64,000 bases of DNA from Bradyrhizobium diazoefficiens (lineage in GTDB: Bacteria; Pseudomonadota; Alphaproteobacteria; Rhizobiales; Xanthobacteraceae): positions 248,001-312,000 of the forward strand of contig NZ_JAFCJJ010000001.1 of the NCBI RefSeq assembly GCF_018131015.1, read 5' to 3'. Position numbers and translations under genes: made by a program. Below the pieces are notes generated by a model. The model saw only the letters and a list, made by a program, of their open reading frames with translations, was not told the DNA's origin and did no database searches. This document shows positions 4,922 to 54,918 of this stretch, piece by piece (the stretch's first letter is position 1; every line of letters starts with the position of its first letter).

Positions 4922-4935
4922 TTGATTTCGATCAA
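4922..4935. promoter_or_regulatory. FixK/FNR box, TTGATTTCGATCAA
   Basis: A strong FixK/FNR match lying almost midway between two divergent genes: 53 bases before the cytochrome start (4868, minus) and 52 bases before the CBS-BON start (4988, plus). One symmetric site can therefore activate both. Confidence 0.9.
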
Positions 4936-10651: not shown

Positions 10652-10665
10652 TTGATATCAATCAA
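10652..10665. promoter_or_regulatory. FixK/FNR box, TTGATATCAATCAA
   Basis: A TTGAT-N4-ATCAA match 51 bases before the minus-strand gene starting at 10,600. The same stretch contains an overlapping TTGATATCAA palindrome. Confidence 0.85.
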
Positions 10666-11282: not shown

Positions 11283-11462
11283 ATGTCCAACATTCTGTTT
11301 CGCTGTCCCAACACCGGCATGAACGTTCAGCACCCGATCGACGAATCTTGCTCCGGAAAGGCCGACGGGGCGATCGCAGTCGTGGATTGCCCTGCTTGTG
11401 CGAGAATCCATCTTATCAACGTCGCGACGGGTGAGTTGGCGGCAGAGCCGAGGAGCAGATAG
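11283..11462 (+). CDS. Small putative zinc-ribbon protein, 59 residues
   Basis: A 59-residue product with CPNTG near the N-terminus (Cys8) and CPAC in the middle (Cys36, Cys39), a pattern like a degenerate zinc ribbon: the first knuckle has one Cys, the second two. The start ATG at 11,283 follows CGGAG; the frame extends back to 11,250 but without a better signal. It is followed by the FixK box at 11,479 and the terminator at 11,560. Similar short proteins are common and uncharacterised in rhizobia. A nucleic-acid or regulatory role is possible but unproven. Confidence 0.6.
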   Translation: MSNILFRCPNTGMNVQHPIDESCSGKADGAIAVVDCPACARIHLINVATGELAAEPRSR

Positions 11463-11478: not shown

Positions 11479-11492
11479 TTGATCTCGATCAA
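11479..11492. promoter_or_regulatory. FixK/FNR box, TTGATCTCGATCAA
   Basis: The best palindrome of the set: TTGATC-N2-GATCAA. It does not lie near a start codon; the next gene begins 270 bases away, and a strong terminator comes in between at 11,560. A promoter activated from -41.5 would start near 11,527. Confidence 0.88.
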
Positions 11493-11524
11493 GTCCAAAA
11501 AATTCGAACCGACTAGTTTGTTTT

Positions 11525-11602
11525 CGACGTAACTAGCCCATGATTACGTCCCCCAAGTCGCCGCCGAGGTCCGCCCCAAAACCTCGGCGGCTTTTCTTGT
11601 TT
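11525..11602 (+). ncRNA. Candidate FixK-dependent small RNA, about 75 nt
   Basis: No gene starts between the FixK box (11,479-11,492) and an 11-base-pair intrinsic terminator (11,560-11,591 plus T-run). A start near 11,525-11,527, about 41.5 bases from the box centre, would give an RNA of roughly 75 nt: an unstructured 5' part of about 35 nt with a C-run (CCCCC at about 11,550), then the terminator hairpin. This is the layout of bacterial trans-acting small RNAs, and resembles in logic the FNR-activated FnrS of enterobacteria, though there is no claim of homology. The terminator might instead only end the upstream small-protein transcript. Direction and start are predicted. Confidence 0.5.
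11560..11602 (+). terminator. Strong intrinsic terminator
   Basis: Perfect 11-base-pair stem GCCGCCGAGGT / ACCTCGGCGGC with a 10-base loop, followed by TTTTCTTGTTT. It separates the FixK box at 11,479 from the regulator gene at 11,763. Confidence 0.9.
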
Positions 11603-11762
11603 CGGGCCGGATGAGTTCGCCGCTCCGAAAGTGGGCCACATGCTTCTTTCCCTGGCATCGGCAGGCGGCCCAGCGATGAATTCGCAGGTTTCCGAATTTG
11701 CGGCAGATCAAGTCTGCTTCCCTGCCTCGCCCTAGTATTGCGCAGTTTGCGGGGAGGCAACG

Positions 11763-12428
11763 ATGCTGGTGAGAACCAATGCAGCGATCTGTCATTCGGA
11801 CGGCGATCAGTTGCACGCCCTTGCAGGCGGTCAGCTCCTCTCCAGCGAATTCAAGTATCGCAGAGGCATGGAAATCTTTGGCGAGGGTGAAGAGGCGGAC
11901 TACGCCTACCAGATCCTGTCCGGCGCGGTGCGCACCTACAAGCTGCTTTCGGACGGTCGCCGCCAGATCAATTCATTTCATCTCCCGGGCGACATGTTCG
12001 GGTTGGAGAATGGCGCAAGCCATCGCTTCACCGCGGATGCGGTCGTCGAAACCAGCGTTCGCATCATGAAACGAAATAGTCTCGTCAACGTCATGGCGAG
12101 CCGGATGACGGGGGCAGGCAGCCTCTTGCGCCTCGTCACGCGGAATCTGGAGCATGCCGAGATGCATATGCTTCTGCTCGGCCGCAAGACTGCGTTGGAG
12201 AGGGTGGCCGCGTTCCTGCTCGAGATGGACGACCGGCTGATGCATCCGGGCGTGCTGGTCCTGCCGATGAGCCGTCGCGACATCGCCGATTATCTCGGAG
12301 TTACCCTTGAAACGGTTTCGCGCGCTCTTTCGATCCTGAAAGATGAAGGATTGCTGCATTTCGACGGACCAACACAGAGACGAATCGTGTTGCGCGATCG
12401 CGTCAAGCTCGGCCAGCTGGAGGCATGA
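11763..12428 (+). CDS. FixK-like Crp/Fnr family transcription regulator
   Basis: A 221-residue regulator: a cyclic-nucleotide-binding-like beta-roll (about 20-120), dimerisation helix (about 125-155) and winged helix-turn-helix (about 165-215). The recognition helix carries E-x2-SR (Glu183, Ser186, Arg187 in TLETVSRAL), the FNR/FixK residues that read TTGA half-sites. The N-terminal Fe-S cysteine cluster of FNR is absent (only Cys10), so it is FixK-type and must take its signal indirectly, for example from FixLJ-dependent expression. Bradyrhizobium FixK2 has a redox-active Cys (C183) just before this helix; the matching position here appears to be Ser170. Good ribosome site (GGGGAGGC). It probably controls the boxes around it, but a second FixK elsewhere is likely. 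Confidence 0.92.
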   Translation: MLVRTNAAICHSDGDQLHALAGGQLLSSEFKYRRGMEIFGEGEEADYAYQILSGAVRTYKLLSDGRRQINSFHLPGDMFGLENGASHRFTADAVVETSVRIMKRNSLVNVMASRMTGAGSLLRLVTRNLEHAEMHMLLLGRKTALERVAAFLLEMDDRLMHPGVLVLPMSRRDIADYLGVTLETVSRALSILKDEGLLHFDGPTQRRIVLRDRVKLGQLEA

Positions 12429-54540: not shown

Positions 54541-54918
54541 CGCGCCACCCGGCTGAGCTGTTCTCTGCCGGCGTTAATCCGTCCGAGCGGGGCGGGTTCC
54601 GCACCCGCACCACTGGAAATTGCAGGCACGCCCGGAACATTTTGCGCGCGTTCTGGCGCGCAAATCGGTGCGGCGGCGGGTCGCAGTCGCGTCGCCTTGA
54701 ATCCGACGCAGCCCATTTCTAAGTCAGGATACAACATGAATCCGGGCCCCTCTGGCGAGGCTGCCGACGAATGTCGGTGAGACCTCGCGATGTCGGATGA
54801 CCTGTCCCCGCGCGAATGCGATGGATCGGCTGATCGTCGGGCCCTCTCTGTTCCCTCCGACGCCACCGTCCCCATCGCTGCCCCCCGCGGTCAATTCGCC
54901 AAGCTCAAGGGAGCGACG

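Follow-up and report, generated by a model that had tools for sequence, protein, structure and literature searches.

In rhizobia, life in nodules, nitrogen fixation and denitrification all depend heavily on control by FixLJ-FixK at low oxygen. In the window, the whole 64-kb stretch of Bradyrhizobium DNA that we analyzed, a FixK-type box stands shortly before a strong terminator, raising the question of what is transcribed between them and to what end. We put the probability at roughly 0.7 that the locus is a free-standing, FixK-activated gene for a small RNA (sRNA) that would be induced at low oxygen and would block G-rich ribosome-binding sites in trans, a reading built on sequence comparison and on analogy with known sRNAs. 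One systems study describes small-RNA-dependent control at low oxygen as poorly characterized (PMC6515984). The locus is now named and found also in strain USDA 110, and predictions are available for its start, end, activator and pairing sites, which opens a FixK-driven sRNA layer to direct testing.

The box, TTGATCTCGATCAA (11479-11492, plus strand), agrees at 10 of 10 positions with the FixK box consensus, TTGAT-N4-ATCAA. An initial annotation had called it the best box of the window; the site and its coordinates were right, but it is not the single best, because an equal box at 2576 ties with it. The longer form TTGATC-N2-GATCAA occurs twice in the 64 kb against 0.00 expected from 100 shuffles, while TTGAT-N4-ATCAA with at most one mismatch occurs at nine sites against 0.94 expected. 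At class II promoters, the box is centered about 41 nt upstream of the start and is accompanied by a -10 element. The last base of a -10-like TAGTTT (11514-11519, plus strand) lies 33.5 nt past the box center, which is class II spacing, and the predicted start is therefore near 11526-11527, 40.5-41.5 nt from that center. Relatives keep the spacing: the distance from box to -10 is nearly fixed and, in a 27-row alignment, T of the -10-like element is invariant and A at least 90% conserved. A sigma-70 scan listed no promoter at the RNA locus; an activator-dependent promoter can escape such a scan. In this arrangement, a FixK-type protein would be the activator of a putative class II promoter.

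Besides the box at 11479, the nine FixK-type sites of the window comprise those at 2576-2589, 4922-4935 and 10652-10665 and five with one mismatch. Seven of the nine fall between 2,500 and 11,500, in a region that also has Hsp20, FtsH and a FixK-like gene and is possibly an island of low-oxygen genes.

The predicted RNA (11526-11600, plus strand) is about 75 nt long, starting near 11526 and ending in a T-run. Its 5′ hairpin, SL1 (11526-11550, plus strand), has the arms GACGTAA (11526-11532) and TTACGTC (11544-11550) around the loop CTAGCCCATGA. A C-rich linker, CCCCAAGTC (11551-11559, plus strand), follows and is mostly unpaired, although the predicted fold allows weak pairing of part of it with the tail. 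The terminator hairpin, SL2 (11560-11598, plus strand), consists of a stem of 11 bp (11560-11570 with 11581-11591) that is 100% complementary, the 10-nt loop CCGCCCCAAA and the T-run TTTTCTT, the initial annotation having likewise noted a perfect terminator of 11 base pairs with a T-run; 67 bases separate box and stem. A terminator scan of the window did not list SL2 because the scan takes loops of 3-8 nt. The earlier description of a C-rich, single-stranded 5′ half stands as regards the C runs, but the 5′ half is the hairpin SL1, and the C runs occupy its loop, the linker and the terminator loop. As folded, the RNA has z = -6.9, and 0 of 200 shuffles were as stable; seven RNAs folded singly gave z-scores of -3.6 to -7.7, in a set that includes a box-less look-alike (L169). 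A 24-codon frame runs from an ATG at 11540 through the terminator and is open in the window (judged by eye), and so the transcript might be a small mRNA. Of the 27 aligned rows, however, that of the window alone has this ATG, and constraint tracks base pairing, which makes a coding role for this frame scarcely credible.

Is the RNA conserved, and does the box go with it? A blastn search of 265 Bradyrhizobium genomes gave matches in 27, some by chance. We built a covariance model, R1, from the RNA only, with the box excluded; its 16 training rows share the same layout and were chosen for their box (18 loci had the layout, and L022 and L029 were omitted from alignment A1). R1 recovers the window RNA at G000:C1:259526-259600, equivalent to window positions 11526-11600, with E = 4.7e-14, this locus being one of the 16 training rows. 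Across the genus, R1 matched at least 32 places in at least 31 of the 265 genomes at E <= 0.01, with the best 13-18 candidates per genome scored. At 29 of these 32 places, a FixK box that matches at 9 or more of the 10 half-site bases has its center 32.5-41.5 nt upstream of the RNA start (28 of 31 computed, plus L132, which was read separately and whose distance of 40.5 was derived from match coordinates). Outside the training rows the fraction is 13 of 16; the boxes of L029 and L053 (the latter under the name L022) had been seen beforehand, yet these loci lie outside the training set. As a control, away from the RNA in the same loci, 1,525 of 161,996 stretches of 60 nt (0.94%) hold such a box anywhere. 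The three matches that have no box are L054 and L059, which look false, and L058, whose fold fits.

Scanning 84,980 species genomes for the pattern yielded 23 stretches, of which six match R1, all titled Bradyrhizobium; the other 17, not so titled, gave no R1 match and were set aside. Also rejected were the blastn matches that have no RNA-like context (L014, L017, L019-L021, L023, L024, L027 and L028), the blastn match L026, which is a box alone, and L174, where a FixK box precedes an open frame and there is no RNA of this kind. L060, L126, L143 and L170-L172 were discarded as members or evidence.

We examined conservation and covariation in a MAFFT alignment of 27 members that was not fitted to structure (alignment A3, from 29 loci minus L050, which has an insertion, and L058, which has no box; L052 is in both A3 and A4). 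Mean pairwise identity is 94.5% in the box half-sites, 38.7% in the adjoining spacer between box and -10, and 48.5% from the -10 to the RNA start. Within the RNA, it is 70.7% in the SL1 arms, 57.0% in the SL1 loop, 65.3% in the linker, 84.4% in the SL2 arms, 60.1% in the SL2 loop and 54.9% in the tail. The spacer has thus drifted (39%), while the box (94%) and the RNA (55-84%) are better kept. Conservation outside the terminator, on which the initial annotation had made its proposal depend, extends over the box, the position of the -10, the 5′ hairpin and the C-rich linker as well as the terminator hairpin.

In the same alignment, 92.7% of cells are paired, compared to 31-43% with the partners slid. 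Nine of 19 pairs have been altered on both sides (4 of 8 in SL1 and 5 of 11 in SL2) versus 3.4 in shuffles, a number that 0 of 500 shuffles equaled; for further pair types, 14 of 500 shuffles reached the observed number. Covariation numbers are higher on the fitted alignment A2, which is biased toward the structure and contains some false rows. Both stems are kept by compensatory evolution. Together, the sequence comparisons make it very probable that the locus is a genuine gene for a structured RNA, conserved and linked to FixK boxes.

Terminators after genes are ordinary, and a 59-codon gene (11283-11462, plus strand), for which there was no Pfam or NCBIfam match, stops 16 bases before the box. 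SL2 might accordingly be a mere terminator of that gene's mRNA, with the box coincidental or serving the downstream gene. We used tblastn to count neighbors at 83 loci, with 1-1.5 kb on either side (83 of 88 loci were counted; L122, L186, L188, L189 and L190 were dropped, and L169 and L121, which have no FixK box, were kept). The 59-codon gene is upstream at 10 of the 83 loci, and ftsH at 18, whereas the box, SL1 and terminator stay together and the -10 keeps a near-constant distance from the box. An origin as the end of the 59-codon gene's mRNA is therefore very improbable, and the evidence continues to favor an RNA gene in its own right.

The downstream neighbor bears on a further question, whether the RNA acts on the gene that follows it. 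In the window this gene (11763-12428, plus strand) encodes a CRP/FNR-family regulator of 221 aa with the Pfam domains HTH_Crp_2 and cNMP_binding. The initial annotation had noted a FixK-like regulator here, with 270 bases between the box and the downstream start, and both points hold: a plausible ATG lies at 11763, at that distance, and the NCBIfam FixK model scores 220 bits, under its 300-bit cut-off. A FixK-like gene is downstream at 20 of the 83 loci, the window included, with homologues of 52-68% identity in relatives. More often, at 33 of the 83 loci, the terminator is followed after about 14-98 nt by a DUF6894 (PF21834) gene in the same orientation; among the 27 aligned rows, which are those of subfamily 1, this holds for 20. 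This proximity would suit a leader or attenuator, in which the RNA would be the 5′ untranslated region of the DUF6894 or FixK-like gene and the terminator would set read-through. Yet the same RNA precedes different genes (both together at one locus, L045), and 31 of the 83 loci have neither gene within the approximately 1-1.5 kb checked downstream. The window RNA is itself intact, and tblastn over about 1-1.5 kb found no DUF6894 gene downstream of it.

Moreover, the FixK-like gene has a box-like site of its own past the terminator. In the window, this is a degenerate FixK-type box, TTGCGGCAGATCAA (11698-11711, plus strand), followed by a -10-like TAGTAT (11733-11738, plus strand), whose distance from its box equals that in the RNA promoter. 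Between terminator and FixK-like gene, TTG-N7-TCAA is present in 17 of 20 loci, counted by eye; it is absent in L161 and L052, and the L117 stretch stops short. With its own promoter-like site, the FixK-like gene does not need the RNA as its leader. Since the regulator gene has its own box and -10, and DUF6894 is next in most subfamily-1 rows, continued transcription into that regulator gene is probably not what the RNA is for, judging from these gene arrangements. A leader or attenuator in general is also rather unlikely, and we continue with the free-standing RNA.

Upstream of the FixK-like genes at L129, L131 and L116, a recurrent element like CCGGGCAATTACGTAGG, which we take to be reminiscent of a FixJ site, precedes the FixK-type box; it is not evident in the window. 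The host genome (7.1 Mb) has FixJ, scoring above the cut-off, beside a FixK, which means that part of the upstream cascade is there.

How widespread is the RNA? For models R2, which spans box to terminator, and R3, both of which include the box, the best 13 candidates per genome were scored and part of the matches were inspected. R2 matched at least 48 of 265 genus genomes at E <= 0.01 and exposed a second subfamily. This has the same layout as subfamily 1, with SL1 GCGTAG-CCCC-CTACGC, linker CCCCACCC and terminator loop TTCCCCAA. Covariation within subfamily 2 alone is weak (3 pairs versus 1.1; 9 of 500 shuffles). R3 matched at least 61 of 265 genomes if weak matches and those to subfamily 1 are counted. 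At E <= 1e-5, the two models together reach at least 54 of 265 genomes, 37 from R2 and 17 more from R3. The distribution in the genus is patchy among the best 13-18 candidates scored per genome, and some genomes have two or three places, G047 having three. A FixK-like gene is downstream in 9 of 18 aligned rows of subfamily 2; the window combines this gene, typical of subfamily 2, with the upstream neighbors of subfamily 1.

With the best 8 candidates per genome scored, an order-wide R2 search matched at least 5 of 397 genomes, all Bradyrhizobium, and a family-wide search at least 27 of 391, three of them outside the genus (G273, G326 and G353). Among these three, the layout looks related in G326 only, at locus L121. 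Locus L122, from another genus, is an uncertain candidate and was left out of the neighbor count. Among the best 8 candidates per genome in the order and family searches, no member outside Bradyrhizobium was convincing.

We next consider what such an RNA could do. Its unpaired parts are rich in C and poor in G. Of the 27 subfamily-1 rows, 17 have CCC in each of the three unpaired segments (SL1 loop, linker and SL2 loop) and the other 10 lack it in at least one; of the 18 subfamily-2 rows, 16 have it in each (L052 is in both sets). At least two of the three segments have it in 24 of 27 and 18 of 18, respectively, and the window RNA has it in all three. In the linker, CCC occurs in 21 of the 27 subfamily-1 rows and in all 18 of subfamily 2. 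In each subfamily, counts of C runs in the linker and SL2 loop are above all 500 within-segment shuffles. In the SL1 loop, 7 of 27 subfamily-1 rows have CCCC versus a shuffled mean of 5.9, a count that does not surpass every shuffle, and in subfamily 2 CCC and CCCC equal the highest shuffle, no more.

We propose that when oxygen is low, a FixK-type protein, either FixK2 of the FixLJ-FixK2 cascade or the neighboring FixK-like protein, would bind the box at 11479-11492 and turn on the class II promoter. The transcript of about 75 nt, from about 11526, would fold into the 5′ hairpin, C-rich linker and terminator hairpin, leaving the C runs of the two loops and the linker mostly free of pairing. 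These runs would pair with G-rich ribosome-binding regions of mRNAs that are dispensable at low oxygen and so block their translation, each molecule offering several partly redundant pairing sites. Induction of the RNA at low oxygen is highly likely. That the RNA, once made, acts as an antisense block at ribosome-binding sites is likely, because of the analogy with sX13 and NfeR1. In an exploratory duplex ranking, the start region of the FixK-like gene, GCGGGGAGG, came 7th of 59 open frames of the window, a predicted rank that is compatible with feedback but is not evidence for it.

As described in the accessible parts of the respective papers, sX13 of Xanthomonas has stable stems and C-rich loops and targets G-rich motifs at start sites (PMC3771888), while NfeR1 (alpha-r14) of alpha-rhizobia has three redundant anti-SD motifs in unpaired regions, with three hairpins that each carry CCUCCUCCC, and is controlled by LsrB and NtrC (PMC10746234). 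sX13 has three stems versus two here, and the accessible text on it mentions no FNR-type control (PMC3771888); against its Rfam family (RF02232), the USDA 110 member (L117) scores 13.9 versus the 50 bits required, and there is no match in the window. Like NfeR1, the RNA is alphaproteobacterial and repeats C-rich motifs in unpaired regions; unlike NfeR1, it has two hairpins, CCC or CCCC runs and a FixK box, and CCTCC is absent from 11526-11600. C-rich, G-poor segments would suit any G-rich partner, and the RNA could be made and yet bind a protein or, as a sponge, another RNA rather than ribosome-binding sites of mRNAs. We consider this improbable, as sX13 and NfeR1, which are of this layout, repress via G-rich start-site motifs, and we retain the translation block as the probable mode of action.

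The comparison with FnrS that the initial annotation had drawn is apt for control, but the action is better matched by the C-rich-loop sRNAs sX13 and NfeR1. FnrS of enterobacteria is FNR-dependent and represses mRNAs that are dispensable without oxygen (PMC8139620). In both cases, a CRP/FNR-family low-oxygen regulator would control the RNA, here a FixK-type protein; in the Rfam comparison, the locus reaches gathering score for no family, FnrS included. Among alphaproteobacterial RNAs, likened here by description alone, PcrZ of Rhodobacter sphaeroides is a low-oxygen sRNA that follows PrrA, with FnrL acting perhaps indirectly (PMC8139620), and the promoters of RSs0019 and RSs2461 of the same species are bound by FnrL, the RNAs themselves being uncharacterized in the accessible part of that report (PMC4263372).

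Genome G027, which we take to be the USDA 110 chromosome, carries one copy of the RNA, of subfamily 2, at 8,442,102-8,442,221 on the minus strand, with a predicted start near 8,442,171. BjsR1-BjsR10 are small RNAs of this strain, several of them multi-copy (PMC5082802). None of the coordinates in Table 1 of that paper, where the coordinate of BjsR10c is absent, is near 8,442,171 on the minus strand, and the nearest, BjsR6a, is 4.8 kb off. We compared BjsR6 because it is multi-copy and within 5 kb of the USDA 110 member. The BjsR6 and BjsR7 copies are at their published coordinates in G027, where the three BjsR6 places resemble one another and likewise the two BjsR7 places. At their published starts, BjsR5a, BjsR6a-c and BjsR7a-b differ in sequence from the USDA 110 member; the other BjsR RNAs were rejected by position only.

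At gathering score, Rfam gave no family for the window locus, for its USDA 110 counterpart or for the further members that were compared (one tRNA was found elsewhere in L121). In the literature searched, which includes the accessible texts of PMC4842269, PMC6515984, PMC7143759, PMC8139620 and PMC5082802, we found no FixK-dependent sRNA; a 2012 Bradyrhizobium sRNA survey, most subscription papers and supplementary tables of transcription start sites were outside this scope, and so earlier detection is possible. The RNA seems to represent a new family within a known class of regulators, the combination of FixK control, C-run loops and several subfamilies being unmatched in that literature.

A broader idea, which we hold only tentatively and regard as doubtful, is that one two-hairpin RNA chassis with unpaired C runs has been copied and has come under a variety of regulators: through FixK boxes in Bradyrhizobium (with several subfamilies and as many as three places in one genome), through CRP/FNR boxes of the TGTGA type (the tandem pair at L121) and possibly through an ECF-type promoter (L169, and the tandem pair at L189). 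Such RNAs might form a post-transcriptional arm of FixLJ-FixK and, more widely, a set of interchangeable translation blockers that act on the same G-rich sites under different stresses.

Several further RNAs and groups were seen in the course of these searches. Locus L121, in another genus of the family, has two tandem RNAs of the same layout at about 1340-1630, each preceded by a TGTGAC-N4-ATCAC box with a -10-like site; their SL1 stems differ yet pair. The window's own genome contains a look-alike RNA that has no FixK box (L169, G000:C56:124306-124415), with a CCCC-loop hairpin, the linker CCCCCCAAG and CCCCC in the terminator loop. It folds with z = -3.64, and 1 of 200 shuffles was as good. 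Upstream of it lies GAAC-N16-CGTC, which to us resembles an ECF-sigma promoter; at L189, two tandem look-alike RNAs have GAAC-N17-CGTC. A third group (L168, L179, L181, L182, L184 and L194) has a FixK-type box, an SL1 like GCGCAG-ATCCCCCAA-CTGCGC and a terminator loop that contains no CCCC. A DUF6894-like gene is next in five of its six loci, the exception being L179, where a CBS-domain-like frame, recognized by eye, is nearby. A fourth group (L185, L192 and L135, the last at about 516-612) has a FixK-like box, a hairpin like GCACTTGGCCCCCCGAGTGC and a C run in the terminator loop. Elsewhere in the window, positions 54734-54805 match the Rfam terC RNA (RF03067) with 52.1 bits against a cut-off of 39.9.
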